NCBI GenBank assembly: GCA_017484005.1
Contig: JAFUTY010000051.1
Coordinates: forward strand, 1 to 64,000
Length of the DNA: 64,000 nt
Direction: 5' to 3'
From: Selenomonadaceae bacterium
GTDB taxonomy: Bacteria; Bacillota; Negativicutes; Selenomonadales; Selenomonadaceae
Both the position numbers and the translations under genes were made by a program. The notes beneath the pieces are model-generated. The model saw only the letters and a program-made list of their open reading frames with translations. It was not told the DNA's origin and made no database searches. How positions within the stretch are numbered: position 1 is the stretch's first letter; each line of letters opens with the position of its first letter. This document shows positions 20,709 through 53,849 of this stretch, one piece after another.

Positions 20709-23699
20709 TTATTCCATTATCATTTTCAAGAGTTCGTGATAACTGCTCACAACGTCATAACGAATCGAATCGTTTGAAATCGATTTGAAATGCTCCCGTG
20801 CGCAATGAATCTTCGAATCTTCTATCAGCCGCAGCTGCACAGAATCCATTGAGCCCTTTGTTTCCGCGATGAAATAAATATTTTTGACGTCATCTTTTCG
20901 AAATACAATTGCCCAGTCTGGATTGTATTTACCGACTGGAGTTGGAACATAAAATCCACTCGGCAGTTTGACATAGATTATAACTTCGCGATCTGATTCA
21001 AGTTCCTCTGCAAATTTCTTCTCGATTGTTGAATCAAATACGAGATAATCATATAAATTTTTCTGAGTCAAAATTGCATTTCGATTCAGTATTCCATTGA
21101 GATTCGCGTCGATAAAAATTTTTGAATCATAAGTTTCATTCGTCACATGATATTTTATTTGTTCAATGACAATCTGAGCCTTTTGAGAATTGATCATTCT
21201 GCTCGCTTTCAAAATAAATTCTTCGGGATTTAATTTGAATCGCGCCAAAATTTTTTGATCGATCCCGCCGAGAATTTGAATGATCGTTTTGCGGCTCAAA
21301 TCAGTCATGCTCATCATTTTCCCAACAAGATCAGAGCGAGATTTTGATGCTGCTGTCATTATGTTTGAATGATCGCTCGATTCTTTTTCGAATGATTCGC
21401 CTGATTTCAATTCGTCTTTCGATCTGATTTTTTTGAGTTCACCTGTCTCAACGCTGAAAAAAATTTCCGTGACATGAAGATCGCGATTCAACAAATCGAT
21501 CGATCTTTTCACGAGTGATTCGGAATCGAAATTCACTTCATAGATCGTTTTCAAATTGATTTTATTCCAGAGTGATTGAAATTCTGGCTTTGCAAATCGA
21601 TCCGGTTCAAATTTTGCTGTAACATTTTGACTCCGCGAATTCTCGATTTCAAATTTCTGCGGCTGATAAATCATGTCGATCATTTCAACGATCGACTCTT
21701 TAAAATCTGAAACTTCGTCGATGAATTCAAGCGTTCCCGATTTTTTATCCTCAAAATATTTATCAGTCAAATTTCCATTGAGATCGAGATAATCGCGCTT
21801 GATCATTGAATAATCAATTTTTCGCGATAGATCCTCATCGATAACAGATCCATCCGGCAATTTTTTCCCTGTGAAGAAATTTTGATCGATTTGCCGCGGA
21901 CGATCAATCACTGCTTCCGCGATTTCAGTTTGAAGTTTTTGGGTGAATTCATCATAACCTTCCGATGCAATGATCGTCAGTTTGTTGATTTTATGAACTT
22001 CACCGCCGAGCAGATTTTCATCCATTCGCGCGCCGGTTTGATCAACACACAATCGAAGTCCACGACCAACTTCCTGACGCTTTCGAATATCACTATTGCT
22101 GTGTTTCAGCGTGCAAATCTGAAAAACATTCGGATTATCCCAGCCCTCGCGAAGTGCAGAATGTGAAAAAATGAATCTTACTGGCGATCGATTTGGATTT
22201 TGATCGAGCAGCAATTCTTTATTTTTCATGATCAGATCATACGCACTGACATCATCGGAAGTTTTTTCACCGCGATTCGAGATCTTTCCATTCGTAAATT
22301 TCCCTTTGCCATCGATTGAAAAATATCCCGCATGAGTTTTTTCCACTGGAATCGATTCGAGATATTTCAAATAATCCGGATTAAAAAGTTCAGGCTGGAT
22401 CTCTTTAACCGCTTGAGAATATTCTTCTTCGAACCAAATCGCAAAATTTCCATTCTGAGGATTTCCATGCGAATCGTAAATTCGATAATTTGCAACTTCA
22501 TCGATGAAAAACAGCGATAGAACTTTGATCCCTCGCGAGAAAAGCTGAGATTCACGTTTCAGATGTGCTTTGATTGTCTCGCGAATCTGAATTCGCCGCA
22601 ATTGATCTTCATCAACATTTCCAATCACATCGCCCGCAAAAATCTTGATTCCATTCAAAAATTCGATCGAATTGTCACGCCCATCGATGAATCTCACGAT
22701 AAAATTGTTCTGATATTCATCGAGCTCGCCGGAATTTTTATAAAGATCGAATCCCTCGCTGATAGTTTGAATCCTTTTTTGAATTCCATTTGAAGATTTA
22801 AAATCGAAATGAATCGTTGCAGTTGGTGCGCTCGACGATAAATTGATTCGCTCTAGATATACAAATCCTTCAGTCGCCATTGAACCGCTCGATTTGATTC
22901 CAACCACACAAATTTTTTTCACGAGATGTTTGTTGTATGCATCCATTGCATCGAGCCGATAAACCATGTTGAAAATTTCGCGATGTGTTGCGGAATATCG
23001 AAGTATCAGTATCGGATGAAAATCTCTCAAACCCTCGCGCGTCCTTCTTCCCTCGAGTGACTGCGGCTCATCGATTATCAAAATTGGATTTGTCTGTGCG
23101 ATTTTTTCAATCGGCTTCTCGCTTTGAAATTCATCCAATGCCATTCGAATTCGCCGAGCATCTTTGCCTGTCGAATTGAATGCCTGCGAATTGATTATCA
23201 TTGCACTGATTTCATGATCCGATACAAAGTTTTCAATCTCCTCGAGCCGAGTCGAGTTGTAGATGAAGAAATGAATTTTTGTTTCATATTCTTCAGCGAA
23301 ATGTTCCTCGGTGATTTGAAAAGTTTTGAAAACTCCTTCGCGAATTGCAACGCTCGGAACGATAATGATGAATTTTTTCCAGCCGTATTTCTGATTCAAT
23401 TCATGCATCGTTTTGATATATGTATAAGTTTTTCCGACGCCAGTTTCCATTTCGATTGTCAAATTGTAACTGCCATCGATCTTTTTCAATTCTTTCGACG
23501 GATCGATTTGATTTCGTCTCTGAACTCGATTCAAATTTTCGAGGATCATTTCATCGCTTAATTGAATCGGTGCATTTGCAGCGTATAAATTCGAAGTCCA
23601 TGTGAAATCGAGATTTGAGTTTGGCTGTCCATTGAAAACATCAATGACTGCTTTTGCCGCATCGATTTGAAACTGCTGATGTTTGAATTGTAATTTCAT
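20709..23699 (-). CDS. type III restriction enzyme, Res subunit
   Basis: This 996-residue helicase-nuclease has Walker A METGVGKT at 84-91, motif II DEPQ at 210-213, later superfamily-2 motifs including the SALREGWDNPNVF and QEVGRGLRL segments, and a C-terminal PD-(D/E)XK nuclease with PD at 927-928 and ETK at 946-948. With Mod it cuts DNA between two unmethylated, inversely oriented sites in an ATP-dependent way. It starts right behind the mod stop, so the two are cotranscribed. All key motifs are intact. Confidence 0.95.
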   Translation of the reverse strand: MKLQFKHQQFQIDAAKAVIDVFNGQPNSNLDFTWTSNLYAANAPIQLSDEMILENLNRVQRRNQIDPSKELKKIDGSYNLTIEMETGVGKTYTYIKTMHELNQKYGWKKFIIIVPSVAIREGVFKTFQITEEHFAEEYETKIHFFIYNSTRLEEIENFVSDHEISAMIINSQAFNSTGKDARRIRMALDEFQSEKPIEKIAQTNPILIIDEPQSLEGRRTREGLRDFHPILILRYSATHREIFNMVYRLDAMDAYNKHLVKKICVVGIKSSGSMATEGFVYLERINLSSSAPTATIHFDFKSSNGIQKRIQTISEGFDLYKNSGELDEYQNNFIVRFIDGRDNSIEFLNGIKIFAGDVIGNVDEDQLRRIQIRETIKAHLKRESQLFSRGIKVLSLFFIDEVANYRIYDSHGNPQNGNFAIWFEEEYSQAVKEIQPELFNPDYLKYLESIPVEKTHAGYFSIDGKGKFTNGKISNRGEKTSDDVSAYDLIMKNKELLLDQNPNRSPVRFIFSHSALREGWDNPNVFQICTLKHSNSDIRKRQEVGRGLRLCVDQTGARMDENLLGGEVHKINKLTIIASEGYDEFTQKLQTEIAEAVIDRPRQIDQNFFTGKKLPDGSVIDEDLSRKIDYSMIKRDYLDLNGNLTDKYFEDKKSGTLEFIDEVSDFKESIVEMIDMIYQPQKFEIENSRSQNVTAKFEPDRFAKPEFQSLWNKINLKTIYEVNFDSESLVKRSIDLLNRDLHVTEIFFSVETGELKKIRSKDELKSGESFEKESSDHSNIMTAASKSRSDLVGKMMSMTDLSRKTIIQILGGIDQKILARFKLNPEEFILKASRMINSQKAQIVIEQIKYHVTNETYDSKIFIDANLNGILNRNAILTQKNLYDYLVFDSTIEKKFAEELESDREVIIYVKLPSGFYVPTPVGKYNPDWAIVFRKDDVKNIYFIAETKGSMDSVQLRLIEDSKIHCAREHFKSISNDSIRYDVVSSYHELLKMIME

Positions 23700-23700
23700 C

Positions 23701-25530
23701 TCAAATCACCTTGAATCTTGTATTTGGCGAGTGGAGTTTAAAAATTTCTCGAGAATTGATCTTGTCTGAATCGCTCGAAAAACTTTCATCTCTAAACACA
23801 ACTCGATTTGGATTCTTCGACGCCATGAATTCAATGACACTCTTTGAAATATTTTTATCAAAACAGGCGATCAAATCTCCGGAATTGTAATTCAGAATCA
23901 TTGATCCCTCGAATTCTTCCAATTCCAATTTCAAATTCAATTCGATTCCCCAATCGATCAAACATTCGAATAACAAATCGAGAGGAGATCGATCCGATTT
24001 GATATTTTCAATCAGATCAAATAATTTCTCGCGAGTCAATTCTTCCGGTGAAATTGATACATCGCGAAAATTTGTAGAATCCAATTTTAGAACTCGAAAT
24101 CCTCTATCGATGTTTTGAAAATTAGATCCAGCACGTCTGATTCTTTCTTTACCGATCTCACAGATATTTTTGAATCCAGATTTAAACGCCTCGGAATTTT
24201 TTGGACAGATTTCCGGCAATTGAACCATGATAAACTTTCTCGATCCATGATCTTCAGAATTGAGCTGCATGACTGCATGAGCTGTTGTTGCTGATCCACT
24301 GAAAAAATCTAAAACGATCTCTCCATCTTTCAAATCTGCAAGTCGAATCAATTCCATAATCAGATTTTTATTTTTTGGATTGTCGAAAGGCAATTTGATT
24401 TCCTTTGCAATTTGAGAAACTTCTAGATCCATCCAATTACTCGTTCGAAGAATAGTGCTCGCCGGCGGCATCCAATGTTGAACTCCTCCATTTTTTCCAA
24501 CGCTATTTTCGATTCGACGAATAAAATCTTTGATTCCTGTTTTCTGATAATATTCTTCCAATGACATCTGATCAGAAAATTTTTCGAGATAGATTCGATA
24601 ATTTTCAATCGCAATTTCCGCTTTCTCTTTCGAATTTCTCCACTGTCCCGATGCTGGAGTAAATCCCAAGAGTTCATAACGCATTGTCGGGCGATCTGCA
24701 TTACTCCAAAAAGCATCCCAATGTCCTTTTTCTGGAATGACAGATTTTTCTGCGCGAATTGCTTTCATGAGAAATGAATTGCTTCTTGCATAAATCAAAA
24801 TATATTCGAATCCAACATTCAAAGTTGACAATCCATTATCGGCGAATTGAGCATTCAAACTTTTTACTCTGCGTCGAGTGATTATTGTATTTCTGAAATT
24901 TGATTCTCCAAAAACTTCATCACAAATCTTTTTCAAATTCGACTGCTCATTATCATCAATCGAGATAAATATGACACCATCATCACTCAACAAATTCCGC
25001 GCGAGCAATAATCGAGAATAGATCATTGAACACCAATCAGAGTGAAATCGAGGATTGGAATCTGAATTCTCAACAAACTTTCGATTCCCATTTTCATCGA
25101 ACAGATCAATCGCCTCTGCATACTCCTCCGAATCCATTTCAAATCGATCTTTGTAAATAAAATCGTGCCCAGTATTATATGGAGGATCGATGTAGATCAA
25201 TTTGATCTTCTTGAAGTAACTCTGCTGAAGAAGTTTCAAAACATCGAGATTATCTCCCTCGATATAAAGATTCTCTGTTGAATTAAAATCGAGACTCGAA
25301 TCGAAATCTGGACGCAAAGTTTTATTGATCTTTCGATAAGCATCGATTCGCGCTGAACTTTTTCCAACCCAGTCAAATCGATAAGCCTCTGGATCATCAG
25401 AAATTTCATCACCGAGAATCTGTCTCAAAACATCAAAATCGATCGAATGTTTGAGATTTCCATTATGATCTCTTGATTCAATCATACATTCGGGAAAAGT
25501 TTTCATGATCAGTTCAATTTTTGAATCCAT
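23701..25530 (-). CDS. type III DNA-methyltransferase, Mod subunit
   Basis: This 609-residue N6-adenine methyltransferase of the beta type has the catalytic motif IV DPPYNTG at 115-121 before the SAM-binding motif I FFSGSATTAHA at about 409-419. The target-recognition domain lies between, about residues 220-390. Mod modifies one strand of an asymmetric site and is needed for Res activity. GGAGG precedes ATG 25530. I see no homopolymer or tandem repeat in the gene, so unlike many phasevarion mod genes it does not look phase-variable. Recognition site unknown. Confidence 0.95.
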   Translation of the reverse strand: MDSKIELIMKTFPECMIESRDHNGNLKHSIDFDVLRQILGDEISDDPEAYRFDWVGKSSARIDAYRKINKTLRPDFDSSLDFNSTENLYIEGDNLDVLKLLQQSYFKKIKLIYIDPPYNTGHDFIYKDRFEMDSEEYAEAIDLFDENGNRKFVENSDSNPRFHSDWCSMIYSRLLLARNLLSDDGVIFISIDDNEQSNLKKICDEVFGESNFRNTIITRRRVKSLNAQFADNGLSTLNVGFEYILIYARSNSFLMKAIRAEKSVIPEKGHWDAFWSNADRPTMRYELLGFTPASGQWRNSKEKAEIAIENYRIYLEKFSDQMSLEEYYQKTGIKDFIRRIENSVGKNGGVQHWMPPASTILRTSNWMDLEVSQIAKEIKLPFDNPKNKNLIMELIRLADLKDGEIVLDFFSGSATTAHAVMQLNSEDHGSRKFIMVQLPEICPKNSEAFKSGFKNICEIGKERIRRAGSNFQNIDRGFRVLKLDSTNFRDVSISPEELTREKLFDLIENIKSDRSPLDLLFECLIDWGIELNLKLELEEFEGSMILNYNSGDLIACFDKNISKSVIEFMASKNPNRVVFRDESFSSDSDKINSREIFKLHSPNTRFKVI

Positions 25531-25889: not shown

Positions 25890-26207
25890 ATGGAAAAATA
25901 TGAAGTCGCAATCAGTTATAAAGACGATCTCGGCGTGATTGTTTACGATCCAGAAAAAAAATCTGCGGAGATCGAGCTTGCAAACGATGAAGGCAAATCG
26001 CTCGTCACAGATTTTTTGAATCAGACGCATGAAATTCAAATCCCGCATCAAACTTTGATGGATTTCACCGATGAAAAAATCGAGCCGCTCGCAAGTGTCG
26101 AGAATCTGCAGCTGACATTGACTCGACTTTGGGAGGCGACTGGAGTTCATGTCGATTGGTCGCGTCCAGTCGATTATGTGCGTGAACATCCGAGATATAC
26201 AGAATGA
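25890..26207 (+). CDS. conserved protein of unknown function, first gene of the folate operon
   Basis: This 105-residue acidic soluble protein begins MEKYEVAISYKDDLGVIVYD and has no membrane segment or known catalytic motif. It ends with a Trp/Pro-rich segment (HVDWSRPVDYVREHP). GAGAGGAGG precedes the ATG, and the stop overlaps the folP start by four bases, so the two are translationally coupled. I do not recognise the family. Position suggests a role connected with folate or translation, but nothing in the sequence shows it. Confidence 0.7.
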   Translation: MEKYEVAISYKDDLGVIVYDPEKKSAEIELANDEGKSLVTDFLNQTHEIQIPHQTLMDFTDEKIEPLASVENLQLTLTRLWEATGVHVDWSRPVDYVREHPRYTE

Positions 26208-26935
26208 AAACTCAAATCGTCGGCATTCTGAATCTCTCTCGCGATTCATTTTCCGGAGATTTTGTCGAAGATTCGAAATCCAAATTGCTCGAATTGATTC
26301 GCGACGGCGCAGATATCATTGACATCGGTGCGCAATCAACTCGACCGAATTACAAAGAAATTTCGATTCAAGAAGAAATCGATCGTCTCAAAATTCTCCC
26401 GGAGTTGATAAAAATCTCGAGCGTTCCAATTTCAATTGATACTTATCGATCGGAAGTCGCTGAATTTGCTTTTAAATCCGGTGCGAAAATTCTCAACGAT
26501 ATTCGAGGACTTCGCGATTCAAAAATGATCGATACCGCCAAAAAATTCGATCGAGTTATTGCGATGCATGATGGATCTCTTTCGACGATGAAAGATCGAT
26601 TCCGATCAATTCTCAATTCTGGAGTCGATCGATCGAAAATCATTCTCGATCCTGGAATTGGATTTGGAAAATCAGCAGAAGAGGATTTACAAACGATCGC
26701 GAATCTCGATGAATTGCGGACGATTGATGATGAAAAAATTCCAATGTTATTAGCTTGCAGTCGAAAATCTTTCATTGGAAAAACTTTAGGATTGGATGTG
26801 GCGAATCGAGTCGAGGCGACTGGAGCAGCTTGTGTCATTGCGATTTGCTCGGGAGTCGAATTTTTGAGAGTTCATGACGTTCAAGCGATTTCTCGAATGG
26901 CTAAAATGACTGACGCGATTCTCAATTCGAGGTGA
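26204..26935 (+). CDS. folP: dihydropteroate synthase
   Basis: This 243-residue DHPS joins p-aminobenzoate to hydroxymethyl-dihydropterin pyrophosphate. The N-terminal motif GILNLSRDSFSGD at 7-19 corresponds to the canonical GIxNxTPDSFSDG with Arg replacing Pro. DIGAQSTRP at 40-48 and ILDPGIGFGK match the family. It is somewhat short but contains the full TIM barrel. The start overlaps the preceding stop by four bases. Sulfonamide-binding loops are present. Confidence 0.93.
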   Translation: MKTQIVGILNLSRDSFSGDFVEDSKSKLLELIRDGADIIDIGAQSTRPNYKEISIQEEIDRLKILPELIKISSVPISIDTYRSEVAEFAFKSGAKILNDIRGLRDSKMIDTAKKFDRVIAMHDGSLSTMKDRFRSILNSGVDRSKIILDPGIGFGKSAEEDLQTIANLDELRTIDDEKIPMLLACSRKSFIGKTLGLDVANRVEATGAACVIAICSGVEFLRVHDVQAISRMAKMTDAILNSR

Positions 26936-26950
26936 ATTCGAGGTGATTTC

Positions 26951-27307
26951 ATGGATAAAATCGTTTTGATTGGACTGGAATTTTTTGGAAGGCATGGATG
27001 CAGTCGCGAAGAACAATCGCTCGGTCAAAAATTTCTGATCGATTTGGAATTGACGCTCGATCTTTCGAATCTTCACGATGAAATTTCCGAGACGGTTGAT
27101 TATGTTGAAGTCGCGAATCTCACCAAAAAAATCGTTGAGAATCAGCCGCGCAAATTGATCGAGACAGTTGCAATTGAAATCGCTGAAAAAATCCTCGAGC
27201 AGTTTTCAAAAATTGAATCGGTGCGAGTGATTCTTCATAAACCACATTCGCCAATCGAATTTTCGTTGAAAGATGTTGCCGTTGAGATTTTTCGGGGGCA
27301 TCAATGA
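26951..27307 (+). CDS. folB: dihydroneopterin aldolase
   Basis: This 118-residue FolB cleaves dihydroneopterin to hydroxymethyl-dihydropterin and glycolaldehyde. It shows the family start (DKIVLIGLEFFGRHGCSREEQ), the DYVEVANL segment, and the catalytic Lys region in VILHKPHSPI. The octameric tunnelling fold is assumed from the family. GAGGTGATTTC precedes the ATG and the stop overlaps the next start by four bases. Confidence 0.93.
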   Translation: MDKIVLIGLEFFGRHGCSREEQSLGQKFLIDLELTLDLSNLHDEISETVDYVEVANLTKKIVENQPRKLIETVAIEIAEKILEQFSKIESVRVILHKPHSPIEFSLKDVAVEIFRGHQ

Positions 27308-28203
27308 AAAATGTATATTTGAGTCTCGGTGCGAATCTCGGCGATCGATTCAAAAATATTTGGCGGGCGATCGAGAAAATTCGCGAGCATGAAAAAATCA
27401 AATTGATTCGACTGTCTTCGATGTATGAAACTGAGCCATGGGGAGTTGACAATCAGCCAAAATTTATCAACGCGGCAGCATGGATTCAGACGGATCTCGA
27501 GCCGATTGAACTACTCGATTCGACGCAAAAAATCGAGCGAGAGTTTGGATTTCACGAGCATAATCAAGCTCGAATGATCGATATCGATATTTTGGAATTC
27601 GAAGAAGTCAAAATCGAATCAGATCGACTGACACTCCCGCATCGATTCATGAATCAGCGTCGATTTGTCCTCGAGCCGCTCATTGAAATTTGTCCATCGA
27701 AAAAATTTCTCCTCGAAAATTGTTCAGATTCTCTCGAAGTCAAAAAAATTCCATCGATCGAATTCGTATTGATCGCGTGTGTCGATCAAAATTGGGGAAT
27801 TGGTTTTGAAAATGATCTGCTGTTTCGAATTCCGAGGGATCTTCATCGATTTCGCGAAATGACGATCGATCAAAATGTGATTATGGGGCGGAAGACTTTT
27901 GAATCGATTGGAAAATTTTTGCCGGATCGAAATAATTTTGTATTGTCGCGATCTGGATTGAAAGTTGAAGATCTATTTGAAAAGCTGGATCGATCGAAGA
28001 AAAGTTTTGTGATTGGAGGATCTGAAATATTTTGGGAATTTCTTCCAATAACATCGTGCGCGGAAATTACATTTGTTCATGAAACTCGAATCGCCGATAA
28101 ATTTTTGGAAAATCTATTTGATCGTGAGGATTTCAAATTGATCTCCCGCGAAAAATTCCATGATGATTTTGATTTTGAATTTCTAACTTTTATACACAAA
28201 TAA
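27304..28203 (+). CDS. bifunctional HPPK / dihydrofolate reductase fusion
   Basis: This 299-residue protein joins two folate enzymes in one frame. Residues 1 to about 150 are HPPK (FolK) with SLGANLGDR at the N-terminus, YETEPWG at 41-47 and the Mg-binding DID at 93-95. Residues about 153-299 are DHFR (FolA) with ACVDQNWGIG at 158-167, the catalytic acid D179 in RDLHRF, MGRKTF at 194-199 and VIGG at 236-239. HPPK pyrophosphorylates hydroxymethyl-dihydropterin for FolP, and DHFR makes tetrahydrofolate. The fusion is not one of the well-known folate fusions. All key residues look intact. Confidence 0.9.
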   Translation: MKNVYLSLGANLGDRFKNIWRAIEKIREHEKIKLIRLSSMYETEPWGVDNQPKFINAAAWIQTDLEPIELLDSTQKIEREFGFHEHNQARMIDIDILEFEEVKIESDRLTLPHRFMNQRRFVLEPLIEICPSKKFLLENCSDSLEVKKIPSIEFVLIACVDQNWGIGFENDLLFRIPRDLHRFREMTIDQNVIMGRKTFESIGKFLPDRNNFVLSRSGLKVEDLFEKLDRSKKSFVIGGSEIFWEFLPITSCAEITFVHETRIADKFLENLFDREDFKLISREKFHDDFDFEFLTFIHK

Positions 28204-28206
28204 AAA

Positions 28207-28251
28207 AGATCCCCGACAGATCAATTCAGATCTATCGGGGATCTCTTTTTT
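28207..28251 (+). terminator. bidirectional intrinsic terminator between the folate operon and rpsO
   Basis: A 16-bp stem with one G-T pair (28207-28222 with 28229-28244) has A residues before it and seven T residues after it. The core CCCCGACAGATC recurs in other terminators here. Confidence 0.9.
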
Positions 28252-36572: not shown

Positions 36573-39500
36573 TTGAGTCTTTTAAATCTCACCGAGTCAG
36601 ATTCCGATTGGCGCGTCGGAATCGATATCGGTTCAACGACGATCAAACTCGTCGTGCTCGATAAAGAGAAAAATCTGATCTACAAAAATTACGCTCGACA
36701 TTTTTCTGAAATCAGTCGATCTCTATCAGAAAATATTTCTACGCTCAAAGAAATCGTCGGGCAAAAAAAATTCTCACTAGCTCTGACAGGTTCAGCCGGC
36801 ATGGGAATCGCGCAGAAAATTGGACTTCCATTCGTTCAAGAGGTTATCGCATGTGCATCGGCAGTCAAATCGCTTATTCCTCAAACCGATACAGTTGTCG
36901 AACTCGGCGGCGAGGATGCAAAGATCACATATTTCGGTGACGCGCCGGAACAAAGAATGAATGGAGTTTGCGCCGGAGGAACTGGATCTTTCATCGATCA
37001 CATGGCGGCTTTGTTATCGACTGACGCGCCAGGTCTTAACAAGCTCGCAGAAGTTGGAAAGCGAATCTATACAATCGCGAGCCGATGTGGAGTTTTTGCC
37101 AAGACTGACATTCAAGCGTTGATGAATGACGGTGCGGAAAAAGCTGATATCGCAAAATCGATCTTTCAAGCTGTCGTGAATCAGACGATTGGAAATCTCG
37201 CGCAAGGTCGTCCGATTTCTGGAAAAGTTGCATTCTTGGGAGGACCTCTGCATTTTCTTCCGGAACTCAAAAAGCGATTCATCGAAACTCTCAAATTGGA
37301 TTCAGATCATGTTGTCGAAGTCAAAGATGGAAATTTTTTCGTCGCGATGGGAGCAGCATTATCTGATGAAGCCAAAGATCTCGAAGTGAAAGATCTCGAG
37401 GCGTCAATCGAAAAATCGAATCGCGAATCCTCGAAGGAAACTCGATCTGCAGATTTCACTTTGTTTGAAACTCCAGAGGAGCTCGATGAATTCAAAGCTC
37501 GACACTCAAAATCGAAAGTCAAACGCGGATCGCTCAAAAATTATCGAGGCAAAATTTTCGTCGGAATCGATGCAGGATCTACAACGACAAAATTAGTCGC
37601 AATCGGAAATCAAAAAGAGATCCTCTACACTTCATACGGAAGCAATCAAGGATCTCCCCTCAAAACGATTGTCGCCGAACTCAAAAAATTTTATGAATCG
37701 ATTCCGCCCGAATCTCAAATCTCGAGCGTTTTCACGACTGGATATGGCGAATCATTGATCAAAGCGGCTCTCCATGCTGACGGAAGTGAGGTTGAGACGT
37801 TCGCACATCTTCGCGCGGCGCAGGAATTCTGTCCAGATGTCTCATTCGTTTTGGATATCGGCGGGCAGGATATGAAATGTTTCTTCGTTCAAAATGGAAC
37901 GATTGGAAATATCACTTTGAACGAGGCATGTTCGGCGGGATGTGGATCTTTCATCGAAAATTTTGCGCAGGGATTGCATATGACTGCCGGCGAATTTGCT
38001 CAAAAAGCTCTCGAATCCAAATCGCCAGTTGATCTTGGAACGCGATGCACAGTTTTCATGAATTCGAAAGTTAAGCAGGCTCAAAAAGAAGGTGCGAGCG
38101 TTGCAGATATCTCGGCAGGTATCGCGCTGTCAATTATCAAAAATGCATTGTTCAAAGTCATGCAGCTCAAAGATGTTTCGAAACTCGGCGCGAATGTTGT
38201 AGTTCAAGGCGGAACTTTTTACAACGATGCAGTTTTGCGATCCATGGAAAAAATTCTGAATCGCGAAGTCATTCGTCCAGATATCGCAGGACTGATGGGA
38301 GCTTATGGCGCGGCAATTCTTGCATTGGAATCAGGAATCGAAGAATCGAGTTTGATTTCTCCAGCGGATCTAGAAAATTTTTCAGTGACAACGAAATCTC
38401 ATCGATGCAACGGCTGTGGAAATAAATGTTTGATAACTACTCAAATTTTTTCAGACGGTCGGAAATTTTTCACTGGAAATCGATGCGAACGAGGAATCGG
38501 TGCTAAAAAAATCGATCGCGATCTCGAAACTCCAAATCTATTTTCTTACAAATATAAACGCGTTTTCGATTATCAGCCGCTCGAAAATCCAACGCGAGGA
38601 TCGATTGGAATTCCTCGAACTTTGAATCTTTACGAGGAATATCCATTCTGGTTTACATTTTTTACTAAGTTAGGATTTCGAGTCGAGCTATCGAGCAAAT
38701 CGACGGCGGAGATCTATTTCAAAGGCATGGCAACAGTTCCGAGCGATTCACTATGTTATCCAGCAAAATTAGCGCATGGACATGTCATGGATTTGATCGA
38801 GCGCGGAATCACTCGAATTTTTTATCCATGCGAGCCTTACAATTTTCCAAACGATCCAAAGTCAGACGACAATCATTTCAACTGTCCAATCGTTGCATCG
38901 TATGCTGAAAACATTCGCGGCAACATGGATATCATTCGCGAAAAAAAGATTCAATTCATACAGCCATTTCTTCCAATCGCGTCGCAAAAAAGACTCTCGG
39001 AAAGAATTTTCGAGGAGTTTCAAAAATCATTTCCGAAGGAAAAAATCTCGAAGTCAGAAATCATTGACGCAATTCAATCAGCGTATCAAGAATTGGAGAA
39101 TTATCGTCGCGACGTCAGAAAATATGGCGAGAAGATTTTGGAGAGAATCGAAAAGACTGGTGAACATGCGATCGTTTTAGTCGGCAGACCATATCACATC
39201 GATCCAGAAATCAATCATGGAATTCCAGAAATGATCCAGTCATACAACCTGCCAATAATTTCGGAAGATGCGCTGTATCATCTGCCAACGCGTGAGAATC
39301 GTCTGCACATCGTGAATCAGTGGAGTTATCATGCGAGACTCTATCACGCGGCGCAATTTGTTTCCGAACGAAAAAATTTGACACTGATTCAGCTTTCATC
39401 ATTCGGCTGCGGGCTCGATGCAATAACAGTTGAACAAGTCAAATCGATTCTCGAGTCGCACCAGAAAATTTATACAATGATCAAACTCGATGAAGTTTCG

Positions 39501-40844
39501 AATCTCGGCGCGGCAAAAATTCGAATTCGATCTCTGATGGCAGCTTTGTCACGTCGCGAAGAAATTCCGTATCAAAATTCAAAACTGATTGAGCGTCCTC
39601 GATTCACGGAGGATTGTAAAAAGACTCACACGATTCTCGCGCCGCAAATGGCTCCAATTCATTTTGAACTCGTCGAAACTGTTTTGCGAAAGTATGATTA
39701 TAATGTAGTGATTCCGAGCATGCCCGATCGGGCGGCAATCGATCTTGGTTTGCGATATGTCAACAATGATATGTGTTATCCGGCGATTGTTGTCATTGGT
39801 CAATTGATCTCCGCACTGAAATCTGGAAAATGTGATCCGGATCACACATCGATCGTTTTGTTTCAAACCTGCGGCGCATGTCGAGCGACAAATTACATTT
39901 CAGTTTTGCGGCAGGCGTTGAAATTCGCAGGATTCCCTCAAGTTCCAGTCTTTGCATGTTATGGATTGCCCGATGAAACTGATGCCTTCGATTTGAGTCG
40001 CGACTGTCTAATCGATGCGATAAAGGCGAGCGTTTATGGCGATCTTTTAATGAATGTAAAAAATCGAATCGAGCCGTATGAAATTGAGCGAGGATCGACT
40101 GAAAAACTCTATCGAATTTGGATGGATCGCGCGAAAAAAGATCTGATCGATGGAAATTATTTCTCTTATAGAAAAAATGTTCGGGAAATCGTTCGTGATT
40201 TTGAAAAACTTCCGATAAATCATGTGAGCAAGCCGAAAGTTGGGATTGTCGGGGAAATTCTGGTGAAGTATCATCCTGTCGCGAATAATGACATCGAAAA
40301 AATTCTGATTCGCGAGGGAGCGGAAGTCGTCATGCCGGAGTTTGTCGATTTCTTCCTCTACAGCGCGTATGATTCAATCGCTAAAAGACAGTTGCTCGAT
40401 GGAACTCGGAAGGAAAAATTCTTCGGGCAGATTTTTATCAAAGTGATAGAATTTTTCCGCTCGCCAATGAAAAAAGCTCTCGAAAAATCAAATCGATTCC
40501 GCGCACCAAAATCGATTTATGAAACCGCTGAACTTGCATCGCGTCATGTGAGTGTTGGAAACATGGCGGGAGAGGGCTGGTTTTTGACTGGCGAAATGGT
40601 CAAATTGATCGAAGAAGGAGTTCCAAATGTGATCTGTCTGCAGCCGTTTGGATGTCTGCCGAATCACATCACTGGCAAGGGAGTTTTGCATTCGCTCCGA
40701 GAATCATATCCCGGCTCGAATTTCGTCGCGATTGATTGCGATGCCGGCGCGTCTGAAGTCAATCAACTCAATCGAATCAAATTAATGCTTGCCGTCGCGA
40801 AGGAGAATCTGGAAGTCAAAGGGGAAATTCAAAATGCAAGTTAA
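36573..40844 (+). CDS. large acyl-CoA dehydratase activase-like protein (BadF/HgdC tandem plus DUF2229)
   Basis: This 1,423-residue protein has two ASKHA ATPase domains: VGIDIGSTTIKLVVLD at about 15-30 and VGIDAGSTTTKLVAIG at about 327-342. The second keeps the cysteines of an activator [4Fe-4S] site (CSAGCGSF and RCTVFMNSKVKQA). A cysteine cluster (CNGCGNKC) follows, then DUF2229 regions ending with FGCLPNHITGKG. By analogy with HgdC it would couple ATP hydrolysis to low-potential electron transfer. No dehydratase A/B subunits are beside it, and the physiological partner of these giant proteins is unclear. It starts at TTG behind AAAGGGGG. Confidence 0.9.
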   Translation: MSLLNLTESDSDWRVGIDIGSTTIKLVVLDKEKNLIYKNYARHFSEISRSLSENISTLKEIVGQKKFSLALTGSAGMGIAQKIGLPFVQEVIACASAVKSLIPQTDTVVELGGEDAKITYFGDAPEQRMNGVCAGGTGSFIDHMAALLSTDAPGLNKLAEVGKRIYTIASRCGVFAKTDIQALMNDGAEKADIAKSIFQAVVNQTIGNLAQGRPISGKVAFLGGPLHFLPELKKRFIETLKLDSDHVVEVKDGNFFVAMGAALSDEAKDLEVKDLEASIEKSNRESSKETRSADFTLFETPEELDEFKARHSKSKVKRGSLKNYRGKIFVGIDAGSTTTKLVAIGNQKEILYTSYGSNQGSPLKTIVAELKKFYESIPPESQISSVFTTGYGESLIKAALHADGSEVETFAHLRAAQEFCPDVSFVLDIGGQDMKCFFVQNGTIGNITLNEACSAGCGSFIENFAQGLHMTAGEFAQKALESKSPVDLGTRCTVFMNSKVKQAQKEGASVADISAGIALSIIKNALFKVMQLKDVSKLGANVVVQGGTFYNDAVLRSMEKILNREVIRPDIAGLMGAYGAAILALESGIEESSLISPADLENFSVTTKSHRCNGCGNKCLITTQIFSDGRKFFTGNRCERGIGAKKIDRDLETPNLFSYKYKRVFDYQPLENPTRGSIGIPRTLNLYEEYPFWFTFFTKLGFRVELSSKSTAEIYFKGMATVPSDSLCYPAKLAHGHVMDLIERGITRIFYPCEPYNFPNDPKSDDNHFNCPIVASYAENIRGNMDIIREKKIQFIQPFLPIASQKRLSERIFEEFQKSFPKEKISKSEIIDAIQSAYQELENYRRDVRKYGEKILERIEKTGEHAIVLVGRPYHIDPEINHGIPEMIQSYNLPIISEDALYHLPTRENRLHIVNQWSYHARLYHAAQFVSERKNLTLIQLSSFGCGLDAITVEQVKSILESHQKIYTMIKLDEVSNLGAAKIRIRSLMAALSRREEIPYQNSKLIERPRFTEDCKKTHTILAPQMAPIHFELVETVLRKYDYNVVIPSMPDRAAIDLGLRYVNNDMCYPAIVVIGQLISALKSGKCDPDHTSIVLFQTCGACRATNYISVLRQALKFAGFPQVPVFACYGLPDETDAFDLSRDCLIDAIKASVYGDLLMNVKNRIEPYEIERGSTEKLYRIWMDRAKKDLIDGNYFSYRKNVREIVRDFEKLPINHVSKPKVGIVGEILVKYHPVANNDIEKILIREGAEVVMPEFVDFFLYSAYDSIAKRQLLDGTRKEKFFGQIFIKVIEFFRSPMKKALEKSNRFRAPKSIYETAELASRHVSVGNMAGEGWFLTGEMVKLIEEGVPNVICLQPFGCLPNHITGKGVLHSLRESYPGSNFVAIDCDAGASEVNQLNRIKLMLAVAKENLEVKGEIQNAS

Positions 40845-46636: not shown

Positions 46637-46672
46637 AAAAGAGCTCGAGCGATTGTGTCTCGGGCTTTTTTT
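46637..46672 (+). terminator. intrinsic terminator or attenuator before the receptor array
   Basis: An 8-bp stem with one G-T pair (46642-46649 with 46659-46666), with A residues before and T residues after, ends only 6 bases before the AAGGAGG of the first receptor gene. No promoter is visible between it and that gene. An upstream hairpin (about 46588-46620) could compete with it, so it may attenuate receptor transcription. Confidence 0.7.
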
Positions 46673-46691
46673 ATTTCAAGGAGGAATTTTT

Positions 46692-47504
46692 GTGAAACTC
46701 AACAAAATTTTCGGTGCTCTTTCAATTTTTACAATTGCAGCGATTGGACTCACTGGCTGCGGCGAAGATCCTCAAGCAAATTCAAACACGCTGAAAGTCG
46801 GCTCGACAATCGATTTTGCACCGTTCGAATTCCAAGACGAAAAGCAGACTGATTATCAAGGATTCGACATGGATTTGATTCGCGCGATTGGCAAAGAGAT
46901 GGGCAAGGAAGTTCAAATCAGCAATATCGGTTTCGATGGATTGATTCCTGCTCTGCAAGCGAAAAATATCGACGTCGTTATCTCTGGAATGACAATCACT
47001 GACGAGCGCAAAGAGAATGTCTTGTTCTCTGATCCATATTATCAATCAGGACTTCAAATCGTCGTGAGATCCGATGAAACTTCAATCAATTCGTTCGAGG
47101 ATCTCAAAGGCAAAAGTTTAGCAGTTCAAATTGGAACGAGCTCTTCTAATGAAGCTAAAAAAATCGAAAATGCAACAGTCAAAGAGCTCAATACTCCGGC
47201 TGACTGCTTCATCGAATTGCAAAATAAAGGCGCGGATGCAGTTATCAACGATCGCCCTGTCAATGACTATGCAATCAAAGAGGGCGGAATCACTGGATTG
47301 AAAGCACTGCCTGAACGTTTGACTGCGGAAGATTATGGAATTGCAATGGCTAAAGACAATGTCGAGCTCCAAAAACAAGTCAACGATGCATTGAAAAAGA
47401 TCCGTGACAATGGTGAGTATGACAAGATTTTCGAAAAATGGTTCGGTGGACAAGTTCCTCAAGCTCAACCAGAATCTCAACCGGAATCCCAGGCTCAACA
47501 ATAA
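46692..47504 (+). CDS. amino-acid ABC transporter substrate-binding lipoprotein, copy 1 of 8
   Basis: This 270-residue type 3 solute-binding protein has a lipoprotein signal with lipobox LTGC. The ligand pocket motifs are present: DFAPFEF, the carboxylate-binding Arg in ITDERK and the amino-binding Asp in DAVINDRPV. It should capture a polar amino acid at the outer face of the inner membrane for the permease at 53148 and ATPase at 53850. It starts at GTG 46692 behind AAGGAGG. The C-terminus is a Pro/Gln-rich tail. It is closest in sequence to copy 2. Confidence 0.93.
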   Translation: MKLNKIFGALSIFTIAAIGLTGCGEDPQANSNTLKVGSTIDFAPFEFQDEKQTDYQGFDMDLIRAIGKEMGKEVQISNIGFDGLIPALQAKNIDVVISGMTITDERKENVLFSDPYYQSGLQIVVRSDETSINSFEDLKGKSLAVQIGTSSSNEAKKIENATVKELNTPADCFIELQNKGADAVINDRPVNDYAIKEGGITGLKALPERLTAEDYGIAMAKDNVELQKQVNDALKKIRDNGEYDKIFEKWFGGQVPQAQPESQPESQAQQ

Positions 47505-47524
47505 TTTTTAAAGGAGTGTAGGTC

Positions 47525-48328
47525 ATGAAAATTTCCAAATTGATCGCGATTTCCGCACTCACCACTTTCGGAATCGCTGGACTCACTGGCTGCGGTGAAG
47601 ATCCTCAAGCGACTTCAAACTCGTTGAAAGTCGGAATGACTGCTGACTTTGCGCCATTCGAATTCCACAGCGACAATCAAAAAGATTATAAAGGATTCGA
47701 CGTCGATTTGATCAATGCTGTCGCTAAAGAGATGGGCAAGACTGTTGAAATCCAGGATCTCGCTTTCGATGGATTGATTCCTGCAATTCAGTCCAAAAAT
47801 ATTGATGTCGCGATTTCCGCAATGACAATCACTGAGGAACGTCAAAAACATATTGGATTCTCAGATCCATATTACAAATCGGGACTTGCGATTCTTGTCC
47901 GCGCAGATGATACGACAATCAACACGCTCGACGATCTCAAAGGCAAAACTATCGCGGCTCGAGTCGATACAACTGGATTAGATGAAGCTAAGACGGTCGA
48001 AAATGCAACAGTCAAACCATTCAAAACTCCGCAGGACTGCTTCAAAGAATTGCAGGCTGGAAACGTCGATGCAGTTATCAACGATCGCCCAGTCAATGAC
48101 TATGCAATCAAAGAGGGCGGAATCACTGGATTAAAAGATCTTCCTCAAATGTTGACTGAAGAAGAATATGGAATCGCGATGGCTAAAGACAATTCCGATC
48201 TGAAAAAACAAGTCAATGACGCGCTGAAAAAACTCCATGAAAATGGTGAGTATGACAAGATTTTCGCAAAATGGTTCGGTGATAAAGCTCCTCAGCCTGA
48301 AAATCAATCCGAACCAGCTCAACAATAA
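47525..48328 (+). CDS. amino-acid ABC transporter substrate-binding lipoprotein, copy 2 of 8
   Basis: This 267-residue lipoprotein (lipobox LTGC) is clearly paralogous to copy 1: identical ITxER and DAVINDRPVNDYAIKEGG segments and the same Pro/Gln tail. The pocket region reads DFAPFEF and differs mostly in the second lobe (RVDTTGLDEAK). AAAGGAGTG precedes the ATG. Conservation with copy 1 is the highest in the array, suggesting a late duplication. Confidence 0.93.
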   Translation: MKISKLIAISALTTFGIAGLTGCGEDPQATSNSLKVGMTADFAPFEFHSDNQKDYKGFDVDLINAVAKEMGKTVEIQDLAFDGLIPAIQSKNIDVAISAMTITEERQKHIGFSDPYYKSGLAILVRADDTTINTLDDLKGKTIAARVDTTGLDEAKTVENATVKPFKTPQDCFKELQAGNVDAVINDRPVNDYAIKEGGITGLKDLPQMLTEEEYGIAMAKDNSDLKKQVNDALKKLHENGEYDKIFAKWFGDKAPQPENQSEPAQQ

Positions 48329-48362
48329 TTTCCATTTCTGATTTTCCAAAGGAGTGTCATTA

Positions 48363-49163
48363 ATGAAACTTTCAAAAAAACTCTCGGCAATGCTCGCAAT
48401 TTTCGCAGTTTCAACATTCGCACTCACTGGCTGCGGCGAAAATCCAGATCAAAACCAAAACTCGGCAAATCCTCCAGCAAATTCCACCGCTCTCAAAGTC
48501 GGAACTGCTGCCGATTATGCTCCATTCGCTTTCCAAAATGAAAATCAAGTTCAAGGATTCGATATCGATCTTATCAATGCTATCGGAAAAGAGATCGGCA
48601 AAAATGTTCAAATCGAGGATGTTAAATTCCAAGAATTGATTTCATCTGTCGAATCCAAAAAAATCGATGTTGCAATTAATGGTATAACTATCAATGGTGA
48701 ACGCAAAGCATTGGTTGCATTTTCAGATCCATATTTCAAATCGGGACTTCAAATTCTCGTGAAAGAGGATAACACTGACATCAATTCGCAGGCAGATCTC
48801 AGCGGCAAAAGAATCGCGGTTCAAGAAGGAACAACTTCCGAGACTTTGGCAAATGGAATCGAAAATGCTGCGGTTACAAAATTCGCAACACCGGATGAAG
48901 CTTATAAAGCTCTTCAAGATGGACAAGCAGATGCAGTTATCAACGATCGTCCTGTCAACGAATATTTGATCAAAGAGAATAAACTCGCTGGAGTCAAAGC
49001 TCTTCCGGAATCTTTGAATGAAGAAGAATATGGAATCGCAATCGCTAAAGATAACGCGGATCTTCAAAAACAGATCAATGACGCTCTCAAAAAACTTCAA
49101 GACAATGGTGAGTTTGGTAAGATTACCGAAAAATGGTTCGGATCTCAACAAACGCAGCAGTGA
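48363..49163 (+). CDS. amino-acid ABC transporter substrate-binding lipoprotein, copy 3 of 8
   Basis: This 266-residue lipoprotein (lipobox LTGC) has an Asn/Pro-rich linker (NQNSANPPANS) after the Cys. The pocket reads DYAPFAF and the hinge motif INGERK replaces ITDER, keeping the Arg. DAVINDRPV is retained. The start is ATG 48363 with AAAGGAGTG upstream; a GTG three codons earlier overlaps that site. It is the most divergent of the first three copies. Confidence 0.92.
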   Translation: MKLSKKLSAMLAIFAVSTFALTGCGENPDQNQNSANPPANSTALKVGTAADYAPFAFQNENQVQGFDIDLINAIGKEIGKNVQIEDVKFQELISSVESKKIDVAINGITINGERKALVAFSDPYFKSGLQILVKEDNTDINSQADLSGKRIAVQEGTTSETLANGIENAAVTKFATPDEAYKALQDGQADAVINDRPVNEYLIKENKLAGVKALPESLNEEEYGIAIAKDNADLQKQINDALKKLQDNGEFGKITEKWFGSQQTQQ

Positions 49164-49172
49164 TTTTGAATC

Positions 49173-49931
49173 ATGAAGTTCGCTAAATTATTAGCAATTT
49201 TCTCGATCTTCGTTTTATTAACTGGCTGCGGCGATGAATCAGCATCTGAATCGGAAGCCGAACCGATTAGAGTTGGCATTTCGAGCGTATTTCCACCTTT
49301 CGATTTTGTAGATGAAGCAAATCAAGATTATCAGGGATTTGATATCGATTTAATTCGCGCGGTTGGCAGAGAAATCAATCGTCCAATTCAATTTACTTCA
49401 GTCGATTTCGATTCAATTATTCCTATGATTCAATCAAACGATATCGATATCTCAATCTCAGCTATCACAATCAATGACGAGCGAAAAAAATCTGTGCTAT
49501 TTTCAGATCCATATTTCGAAACGGGCTTACAAATCGTCGTGAAAGATGACAACACTTCGATAAATTCGCTTGCGGATCTCAAGAATAGGCGAGTTGCAGT
49601 TTATATCGGGACGACTGCAGATGCTAAAGCTCATCAAGTCGAAAGTGCAGCTATCACGCGGTTAAATGATCCCGCAAAATGTTATGACGAGCTGGAAGAT
49701 GGAAATGTTGACGCGGTTATCAATGACAGTCCATATAGCGCATATCTGCTCGCGCAAGGACAAATCGCAAATGTAAAAATTCTTCCGGAACTTTTGACTT
49801 ATGAAGAATATGGAATCGCGATTCAAAAAGATAATGTTGAATTGCAAAAACAGATCAATGACGCGCTGAAAAGAGTTCATGAAAGCGGCGAATATGATCA
49901 AATTTACTCAAAATGGTTCGGAGAAAAATGA
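49173..49931 (+). CDS. amino-acid ABC transporter substrate-binding lipoprotein, copy 4 of 8
   Basis: This 252-residue lipoprotein (lipobox LTGC) has pocket motif SVFPPFDF, ITINDERK, and DAVINDSPYSAY with Ser replacing Arg after the Asp. It shares with copy 7 the segments LxxGQIANV, ELLTYEEYGIA and GTTxDAxAxQ, so these two are sister copies. There is no clear AGGAG before the ATG, only 9 bases after the previous stop; translation is probably coupled to copy 3. Confidence 0.9.
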   Translation: MKFAKLLAIFSIFVLLTGCGDESASESEAEPIRVGISSVFPPFDFVDEANQDYQGFDIDLIRAVGREINRPIQFTSVDFDSIIPMIQSNDIDISISAITINDERKKSVLFSDPYFETGLQIVVKDDNTSINSLADLKNRRVAVYIGTTADAKAHQVESAAITRLNDPAKCYDELEDGNVDAVINDSPYSAYLLAQGQIANVKILPELLTYEEYGIAIQKDNVELQKQINDALKRVHESGEYDQIYSKWFGEK

Positions 49932-49947
49932 TTCGGAGAGTTGAGTC

Positions 49948-50721
49948 ATGAAAGATTTTGCTAAAAAATTGCTGGCGATATTCTCGATTTTTTCACTGAC
50001 TATCTTTTCATCCGGATGTCTTGGCGATGATGAAGTTGAAAATCCCAAAATGTCACTTCGAGTTGGAACGAGACTTGATAGTCCTCCATTGGAATTTTAT
50101 GCTGAAAATGGAAAAGATTATCTGGGATTCGAGATTGATTTGATTCGCGCAATCGCTAAAAAGATGAATGCTCGTGTTGAAATCGAGGATATAAATTTCG
50201 ATGCACTAATTCCTGCACTTCAATCAAATATGATCGACTTAGCAATTTCTGGAATGACAATCACTGACGAACGAAGTCAGATTGTCGTATTTTCAGATCC
50301 ATATTATGAATCGGGATTGACTGTTCTTGTGAAAGCGAATGATGGCTCAATCAATTCGTTCAATGATCTAAGAGGCAAACGAATCGCGACGAGATTTGGA
50401 TCAACTGGTTATGCAGCGGCAAGACAAATCGCAGGTGTAGATATCATAGAGTTCGGCGAAGCAAATGAAGCTGTCGAAGAACTTCAAAATGGTGAAGCGG
50501 ATGCAGTTATTGGCGACCGTCCAGTCAATGATTATTTGGTAAAAAACAATGCAGATCTTGGACTCAGATCGCTCCCAGGAACTTTATCAGCGGAATATTA
50601 TGGAATTGCAGTTGCAAAGGATAACGAAGAACTTCTGCAGAAAATCAATGAGAGTTTACAGTATATTCGCGACAGCGGTGAGTATGACAAGATCTATTTG
50701 AAATGGTTCGGGGAAAATTGA
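49948..50721 (+). CDS. amino-acid ABC transporter substrate-binding lipoprotein, copy 5 of 8
   Basis: This 257-residue lipoprotein (lipobox SSGC) has the most altered pocket, RLDSPPLEF, where most copies have EFAPFDF-like residues. ITDERS and DAVIGDRPVNDY are kept. It may have a changed ligand preference. The upstream gap contains CGGAGAGTTGAGTC, which is repeated before copies 6 and 7. Confidence 0.9.
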   Translation: MKDFAKKLLAIFSIFSLTIFSSGCLGDDEVENPKMSLRVGTRLDSPPLEFYAENGKDYLGFEIDLIRAIAKKMNARVEIEDINFDALIPALQSNMIDLAISGMTITDERSQIVVFSDPYYESGLTVLVKANDGSINSFNDLRGKRIATRFGSTGYAAARQIAGVDIIEFGEANEAVEELQNGEADAVIGDRPVNDYLVKNNADLGLRSLPGTLSAEYYGIAVAKDNEELLQKINESLQYIRDSGEYDKIYLKWFGEN

Positions 50722-50751
50722 TTCGGAGAAAGTGATTTGTAGAGTTGAGTC

Positions 50752-51531
50752 ATGAAAAATTTTGCTAAATTGCTCGTGATTTTCTCGATTTTCATCCTCT
50801 TCATCGGCTGCAAAGATGAGCCTGAAACTAAAGTCGAGCCGCTCAGAGTTGGCTCAGCTCTTGAATTTGCTCCATTCGATTTTCAAACGCCGGACGACAG
50901 AAATTATCAAGGATTCGATATCGATTTGATTCGCGCGATTGGTAAAAAGATGGGGCGAGAAGTCAAAATCAGTAATCTCGGCTTTGAATCGGGATTCGAT
51001 GGATTGATTGCCGTGCTGCAGACTAAAAACATCGATCTTTTCATCGCGGGAATGACAATCACTGATGAACGCCGTCAAAAAGTTCTATTTTCAGATCCAT
51101 ATTTCAAATCGGGACTTGCAATTGCGATTCGAGCAAATGATTCAACCGTCAATTCATTTCAAGATTTAGCGGGAAAAAGAATCGCCGTTTTGATTGATAC
51201 AACTGGAAATCTCGAGGCTCAAAAAATTCCGAACGTCACGATTAAAGAATTTGGAACGCCGACGGAATGTTTCGAGGAGCTTGCAAAAAATCAAGTCGAT
51301 GCAGTTATCAATGATCGTCCAGTCACCGATTACATGATTCATCGCGGCGAAATTTCGAATGTGAAAGTTCTGCCGGAATTGTTGACTGAAGAAGAATATG
51401 GAATCGCGATTGAAAAGGATAGTGTCGAATTGATGCTGCAAGTCAATCTCGCACTGCAGCAGATTCGTGACAGCGGCGAATATGATCGAATTTATGAAAA
51501 ATGGTTCGGAGCAAAACATTCGGAGAGTTGA
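50752..51531 (+). CDS. amino-acid ABC transporter substrate-binding lipoprotein, copy 6 of 8
   Basis: This 259-residue lipoprotein (lipobox FIGC) has pocket motif EFAPFDF and a four-residue insertion giving LGFESGFDGLI, shared only with copy 8. DAVINDRPVTDYM and RGEISNVKVLPELLT also match copy 8, so these are sisters. A 57-base stretch (51264-51320) is identical to copy 7, although copy 7 belongs to a different sub-lineage. The ribosome binding site is weak (TAGAGTTGAG). Confidence 0.9.
   Translation: MKNFAKLLVIFSIFILFIGCKDEPETKVEPLRVGSALEFAPFDFQTPDDRNYQGFDIDLIRAIGKKMGREVKISNLGFESGFDGLIAVLQTKNIDLFIAGMTITDERRQKVLFSDPYFKSGLAIAIRANDSTVNSFQDLAGKRIAVLIDTTGNLEAQKIPNVTIKEFGTPTECFEELAKNQVDAVINDRPVTDYMIHRGEISNVKVLPELLTEEEYGIAIEKDSVELMLQVNLALQQIRDSGEYDRIYEKWFGAKHSES
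51264..51320. repeat. 57-base segment identical to 52047-52103
   Basis: The same 57 bases occur in copies 6 and 7 and encode part of the second lobe including CFEELAKNQVDAVINDRP. Flanking sequence diverges at once, which fits gene conversion. Confidence 0.9.
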
Positions 51532-51534
51532 ATC

Positions 51535-52308
51535 ATGAAAATTTTTACTAAATTACTCGCAATTCTCTCGATCTGTATATTTTTCACTGGCTGCGGCGAT
51601 GAATCGAAATCTGAATCGGAAGTCAAAGTCGAACCGCTCAAAGTTGGCGCATCGATAGCATTTCCGCCGTTTGGATTCAAAGATGATTCGAGCCGCGATT
51701 ATCAAGGATTCGATATCGATTTGATTCGCGCAATTGGTCGAGAGCTCGGTCGTCCAGTTCAATTGAGCAGTATCAGTTTCGACGGATTAGTTCCGACAAT
51801 TCAATCTAAAAACATCGATCTTGCGATTTCTGGAATTACAATCACTGACGAACGGAAGAAATCGCTGTTGTTTTCAGATCCATATTTTGAATCGGGACTT
51901 CAAATCGTCGTGAGAGATGACAACACTTCGATAAATTCGCTCGAGGATCTCAAAGGCAAACGAATCGCAGTTCAAATCGGGACAACTTCAGACGCTCAAG
52001 CCCAGCAGATCGAAGATGCAATTCTCACGAAGCTTGATACTCCCGTGGAATGTTTCGAGGAGCTTGCAAAAAATCAAGTCGATGCAGTTATCAATGATCG
52101 TCCGTCAAATGCATTCATGCTCGCTCGAGGACAAATCGCAAATGTTCGAATGATTCAAGAGCTTTTGACTTATGAGGAATATGGAATCGCGGCGATGCCA
52201 GATCGGGCGGAATTGATTCAGCAGATCAATGACGCGCTGAAAAAAGTTCGTGACAGTGGAGAATATTATCGGATTTATGCAAAATGGTTCGGTGAGCAGA
52301 AGGATTAA
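51535..52308 (+). CDS. amino-acid ABC transporter substrate-binding lipoprotein, copy 7 of 8
   Basis: This 257-residue lipoprotein (lipobox FTGC) has pocket motif SIAFPPFGF like copy 4 and ITDERK. It shares DxLxxxxNSLEDLKGKRIAVQ with several copies. The Asp motif DAVINDRPSNAF combines the copy 6-like block with a copy 4-like continuation. It starts three bases after copy 6 stops, behind CGGAGAG. Confidence 0.9.
   Translation: MKIFTKLLAILSICIFFTGCGDESKSESEVKVEPLKVGASIAFPPFGFKDDSSRDYQGFDIDLIRAIGRELGRPVQLSSISFDGLVPTIQSKNIDLAISGITITDERKKSLLFSDPYFESGLQIVVRDDNTSINSLEDLKGKRIAVQIGTTSDAQAQQIEDAILTKLDTPVECFEELAKNQVDAVINDRPSNAFMLARGQIANVRMIQELLTYEEYGIAAMPDRAELIQQINDALKKVRDSGEYYRIYAKWFGEQKD
52047..52103. 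repeat. 57-base segment identical to 51264-51320
   Basis: Second copy of the identical block, located in receptor copy 7. Confidence 0.9.
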
Positions 52309-52313
52309 TAAAG

Positions 52314-53084: not shown

Positions 53085-53093
53085 TCTTTTTAG

Positions 53094-53129
53094 AAAGTGA
53101 GTGGGCAAATCGTTCCGCTCACTTTTTTT
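53094..53129 (+). terminator. intrinsic terminator inside the transporter operon
   Basis: A strong stem (53094-53105 with 53114-53125, including two G-T pairs) is followed by a run of T residues. It lies between the receptor array and the permease gene and should reduce permease/ATPase expression relative to the receptors. Confidence 0.8.
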
Positions 53130-53147
53130 CGTTCGGAGGTGCAAATT

Positions 53148-53810: not shown

Positions 53811-53849
53811 ATCTCAAAAATTTTTCAATATAGATCGGAGATGAATTGA

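Follow-up and report, generated by a model that had tools for sequence, protein, structure and literature searches.

Whether HPPK (FolK) and DHFR (FolA), two folate enzymes between whose steps FolP and FolC act, can form a single protein, and why they should be joined, is the question raised by one open reading frame in the 64,000-nucleotide stretch of Selenomonadaceae DNA analyzed here (positions 1 to 64,000 of contig JAFUTY010000051.1; referred to below as the window). The frame, a folK::folA fusion gene at 27304..28203 on the + strand, begins with ATG, ends with TAA and encodes 299 amino acids without an internal stop. Pfam searches placed an HPPK domain at residues 5-131 (27316..27696, +; PF01288, E 9e-36), with the whole profile covered (positions 1-116 of 116) at 123.2 bits against a cut-off of 25.7, and a DHFR domain at residues 154-295 (27763..28188, +; PF00186, DHFR_1, E 9e-34), with profile positions 2-156 of 159 covered at 116.9 bits against a cut-off of 25. 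The NCBIfam folK model TIGR01498 scored the same protein at 130.6 bits, compared with a cut-off of 54.1. An earlier note on this DNA had proposed a FolK-FolA fusion in one frame, with an apparently complete DHFR domain, that bridges non-consecutive steps of the pathway; the two domain matches and the in-frame relatives described below bear out each of these points. Its own genome (2.44 Mb in 72 contigs, 100% complete according to its record) yielded no other HPPK and no other DHFR.

The fusion gene stands last in a folP-folB-fusion operon. It is overlapped by 4 bases by folB, which encodes a dihydroneopterin aldolase of 118 amino acids (26951..27307, +; PF02152, E 6.9e-32), and this gene follows folP, which encodes a dihydropteroate synthase of 243 amino acids (26204..26935, +; PF00809, E 2e-51; TIGR01496, 216 bits, cut-off 162.6). 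Upstream of folP is the gene for ribosomal protein L32 (25647-25829), and a frame without a Pfam family lies between the two (25890-26207). Downstream, rpsO runs in the opposite direction, and a terminator-like inverted repeat is situated between the convergent genes (28202..28249; no strand assigned, the tool having reported the - strand), although the scan that returned it gave no excess of such sites over shuffled sequences. A promoter scan of the operon showed no excess over shuffles. The order folP-folB-fusion recurred in most loci with enough flanking sequence. A type III restriction-modification pair, consisting of a Res protein of 996 and a Mod protein of 609 amino acids, adjoins the folate operon in the window (20709-25530, -).

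The distribution of the fusion was surveyed in 189 genomes of the order, which are identical to the 189 of the family Selenomonadaceae and represent 30 genera. A profile built from 23 fused proteins matched 182 of these genomes, and loci were fetched from the 131 in which the match extended into the DHFR part. HPPK and DHFR occupied one frame in 130 of the 131 loci, the sole exception being G176 (L277), in which the halves lie in two frames. In total, 15 of the 30 genera contained the fusion. A search for the DHFR family found it in 134 of the 189 genomes, comprising the 131 fetched, one with only a stand-alone DHFR (G117) and two with short fragments (G068 and G151); G154 carries the fused gene plus a second, stand-alone DHFR.

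Among the 380 genomes of the class, Selenomonadaceae were the only family to give full-length fused matches, as judged from the matches listed in order of E-value, with the full-length ones at the head of the list; in those genomes of Veillonella-like families that were inspected and had two matches, the two genes lie apart. A genome scan detected 590 related stretches. Among the best 80 of these, the long matches included Selenomonadaceae MAGs, Quinella sp. 1Q7, Selenomonas flueggei ATCC 43531 and S. ruminantium, and the HPPK-only matches included Schwartzia and Anaerovibrio. Three apparent long matches were rejected as instances of the fusion: in Castellaniella caeni (L074) folK and folA are separate neighbors, in an Anaerolineae MAG the partner of HPPK is FolE2 rather than DHFR, and in a Saprospiraceae MAG (L126) HPPK stands alone. 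The Anaerolineae gene (L094:2983-4440, +) is in its own right another step-skipping folate fusion, of HPPK with the GTP cyclohydrolase FolE2 (PF02649). As these results come from the top 80 of the 590 stretches, rare fusions may exist outside the family. Neither 72,556 plasmid records nor 50,697 phage records contained a stretch that covered 80% of the query, and IMG/VR contained no relative. The trait is old, belongs to the family as a whole and can be found in publicly available genomes of named species.

Inspection of thymidylate synthesis in the same genomes revealed ThyX in 182 of 189, covering all 30 genera, and ThyA in 2 of 189. The genome of the window contains ThyX (G000:C22) and yielded no ThyA. 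Both ThyA loci (G117:C305 and G154:C179) adjoin a stand-alone DHFR, and the contigs that carry them may be foreign. ThyA yields dihydrofolate, for the recycling of which DHFR is needed (PMC5954106), and organisms that use ThyX are described as not needing a high reduction capacity, with some still required (PMC1971073). With ThyX and without ThyA, DHFR would therefore have no dihydrofolate to recycle and would only complete newly made folate, at a flux matching that of HPPK. That the two fluxes would be equal offers a reason for the fusion, as we infer from the co-occurrence of fusion and ThyX in this family, a link that comes from one family and thus from one or a few evolutionary events. Fourteen of the 30 genera (for example L048-L052) possess HPPK and ThyX and gave no DHFR match, as would be expected if demand for DHFR is low; these sister genera revive a long-standing question, namely which enzyme produces their tetrahydrofolate.

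The explanation that we consider probable is that the protein is a bifunctional HPPK-DHFR, joined once in Selenomonadaceae, which suits the flux of cells that have ThyX and no ThyA. The N-terminal HPPK would activate 6-hydroxymethyl-7,8-dihydropterin for FolP, and the C-terminal DHFR would reduce the dihydrofolate produced by FolC, which is present in the window's genome. ThyX would return tetrahydrofolate and, ThyA being absent, DHFR would be left without recycling work; it would be needed once per new folate molecule, which equals the flux of HPPK, such that a fixed 1:1 dose encoded in the operon would be enough. The join itself would have taken place in an ancestor within the family, with a Negativicutes-type DHFR appended directly behind HPPK in a folP-folB-folK operon.

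Phylogenetic analysis of the DHFR part (51 rows) separated 26 fused sequences, together with the split L155, from 24 others with support of 88/95, a branch that is not starred. This grouping fits one fusion event. In the FolP-FolB-HPPK tree (56 rows), fused and unfused members were mixed, requiring five changes, at least three of which are forced by starred branches, and this mixing suggests that DHFR may later have been lost in several genera. A single fused clade was not recovered in this tree and was not rejected either (AU p 0.275), so the order of gain and loss cannot be set. A search behind 26 unfused HPPK genes gave no decayed DHFR (best E 0.59), a result that lends no support to loss.

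HPPK passes almost directly into DHFR, without a long linker. The stretch from HPPK Phe123 to the first DHFR strand measures 35 to 64 residues (median 46), compared with the 35 that follow Phe123 in E. coli HPPK. The 27 codons of the junction include ATG in 44 of the 130 fused genes and GTG or TTG in 57 more, and contain none of these in 29. A conserved internal start from which DHFR might be translated separately thus appears unlikely, given the 29 genes without any start codon at the junction; in the window, the nearest candidate seen by eye is a TTG within the first DHFR strand. An AlphaFold2 model computed with 23 fused homologues had a mean pLDDT of 93.5 and a pTM of 0.87, and structure comparison showed that its halves resemble solved HPPKs and DHFRs. 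Among the 60 of 157 matches listed, no solved chain spanned both halves.

Active-site residues were compared by using E. coli FolK and E. coli FolA as numbering rulers. In HPPK, Mg is bound by Asp95 and Asp97, and Arg92, His115 and Arg121 are further residues of the active site; in DHFR, Asp27 is catalytic, and Arg57, Gly95-Gly96 and Thr113 also belong to the site. The Mg-binding DID motif of the window protein lies at residues 93-95 (27580..27588, +) and the equivalent of DHFR Asp27 is Asp179 (27838..27840, +); the earlier note had described the motif and the catalytic acid as in place. The two motif aspartates and the catalytic aspartate are kept in 130/130 fused proteins. HPPK Glu77, Arg92, Asp95, Asp97, His115, Arg121 and Phe123 were invariant in all 130, as were DHFR Asp27, Thr46, Leu54, Arg57, Gly95 and Gly96. 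HPPK Asn10 and Asn55 were kept in each of the 128 proteins with letters at those positions, and DHFR Thr113 was found in 126 of 130, including that of the window, with Ser in three and a gap in one. With the catalytic residues invariant in 130/130, selection appears to maintain both active sites throughout the family.

The exception to this pattern is catalytic loop 3 of the window's own HPPK (residues 82-90, 27547..27573, +). This loop, including Arg82 and Trp89, is important for HPPK catalysis. It is two residues shorter than in relatives and lacks the equivalents of Arg82, Arg84 and Trp89, with Arg92 kept; the HPPK domain, described beforehand as apparently complete, is therefore complete at the level of the profile but not in this loop. 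Arg84 and Trp89 were missing from the window protein alone (Trp89 being present in 129 of 130), whereas Arg82 was kept in 126 of 130 fused proteins, the others being that of the window and three more of the same genus. In those three (L020, L021 and L254), Arg82 is replaced by Thr or Ile and Arg84 and Trp89 are retained. All 94 unfused HPPKs, a smaller set, kept Arg82. Confidence in the structural model was lowest in the block 81-90 (pLDDT 67).

The activity of the window's HPPK is in doubt because most of loop 3 is missing. One reading, which we regard as possible yet distinctly less probable than a working bifunctional enzyme, is that in this species HPPK is dead or nearly so and is decaying, such that the protein would serve mainly as a DHFR for salvaged folate or for little new folate. 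The deletion and losses unique to this copy among 130 point in that direction, as does its long branch in the trees. Furthermore, although the genome contains folP, folB, folK and folC, it yielded no match to a FolE-type GTP cyclohydrolase I (PF01227), which leaves the beginning of the pathway unproven there. Crystal structures have been deposited for the E. coli HPPK mutants R82A and R92A (1hq2 and 1f9h). Against decay, the frame is open, this copy is the only HPPK of its genome, FolP, FolB and FolC are present with good scores, and Arg92, Asp95, Asp97, Glu77, His115, Arg121 and Phe123 are all retained. On the preferred reading of a bifunctional enzyme, the shortened loop 3 may leave the HPPK half weak in the species of the window.

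Trp22 is usual in DHFR active sites but is not a strict criterion. Its position is occupied by Phe174 in the window protein (27823..27825, +), and Trp was found in none of the 130 fused proteins, which instead contain Phe (75), Val (21), Thr (12), Ala (9), Tyr (7), Leu (3), Glu (2) or Met (1). This universal replacement may affect the binding of antifolates. It could also mean that the substrate of the DHFR domain is a different pterin, such as dihydropteroate, or that the domain is a folate sensor that tunes HPPK, and in Helicobacter pylori a flavin-dependent dihydropteroate reductase is indeed reported to be fused to dihydropteroate synthase (PMC1971073). We consider this unlikely, as Asp27, Arg57 and Thr113 of the folate site are kept (Thr113 in the 126 noted above) and as 9 of 20 stand-alone DHFRs from other families of the Negativicutes were likewise without Trp22. 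The latter comparison ruled out Trp22 loss as a hallmark of the fusion and indicates that the loss is older than the fusion or independent of it.

That the frame is an artefact, either two genes joined by a sequencing error that removed a stop, which had been named beforehand as a possible refutation, or a rare frame without a product, has a negligible chance of being correct, because against the single relative with halves in two frames (G176) stand 130 in-frame copies from separate genomes, including those of isolates such as S. flueggei ATCC 43531 (L066).

No paper naming a FolK-FolA fusion was found among 5.39 million open-access papers, so that the other refutation named beforehand, a wide existing record, does not hold either; this is consistent with the view taken at the outset that this pair is not among the well-described fusions. 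No bifunctional HPPK plus DHFR model appeared among the 25 of 30 NCBIfam matches listed; the sequences themselves are public and databases may carry the pair. The pairing of HPPK with DHFR_1 matches none of the known classes (FolB-FolK, FolK-FolP, DHFR-TS and FolP-DHFR2). In DHFR-TS, the DHFR is N-terminal. Papers on folate enzymes describe FolB-FolK, FolK-FolP and DHFR-TS fusions and the FolP-reductase of H. pylori. Each resembles the present protein in part. FolB-FolK (structure 2cg8) also contains HPPK, but joined to the preceding step, and FolK-FolP, as in Francisella tularensis (structures 3mcm and 4pzv; PMC2994781), likewise has an N-terminal HPPK, but joined to the next step, whereas here FolP and FolC intervene before DHFR. 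DHFR-TS of plants and protozoa (PMC6451014) similarly links DHFR to another folate enzyme; that partner, however, is a ThyA-type synthase that makes dihydrofolate, and ThyA is absent here. FolP-DHFR2 of H. pylori shares with the present protein the fusion of a folate synthesis enzyme to a reductase (PMC1971073) and an organism that uses ThyX, although the partner is FolP rather than FolK and the reductase depends on flavin and lies outside the FolA family.

The same two enzymes have also been reported to meet in E. coli, where DHFR binds FolK weakly (Kd 22 μM by Raman, with split YFP) through its C-terminal hairpin (PMC12583656). There the proteins are separate and the contact is weak and transient, and the tether described here would fix a contact already reported. 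The fusion can thus be regarded as a natural tethered version of the E. coli interaction, which makes the idea of a folate metabolon testable. An extension of this idea, to which we assign only a slim chance, is that in bacteria with ThyX alone DHFR has become a purely biosynthetic module tethered to the entry kinase as a covalent form of the E. coli-type contact, that the folate state of DHFR sets HPPK activity, and that the window's HPPK, with loop 3 truncated, relies on the DHFR domain for a complete or ordered active site. The locus adds to the folate fusions a new one that skips steps, is conserved in 15 genera of a family that is common in gut and rumen, and is apparently tied to the use of ThyX rather than ThyA.

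Three further regions of the window were noted. Eight tandem paralogous solute-binding proteins with pairwise identities of 44-65% are encoded at 46653-54575 (+); the four that were scanned in Pfam were all SBP_bac_3, and the eight are followed by one permease, recognized by eye, and one ABC ATPase, giving many binding proteins and one transporter. A protein of 1423 amino acids with BadF/BadG and DUF2229 domains, similar to CoA enzyme activases, is encoded at 36573-40844 (+). Finally, genes for PEP phosphomutase, an iron alcohol dehydrogenase and a TPP enzyme lie in a row at 60685-63953 (-), an arrangement that we take to resemble a phosphonate synthesis cluster.
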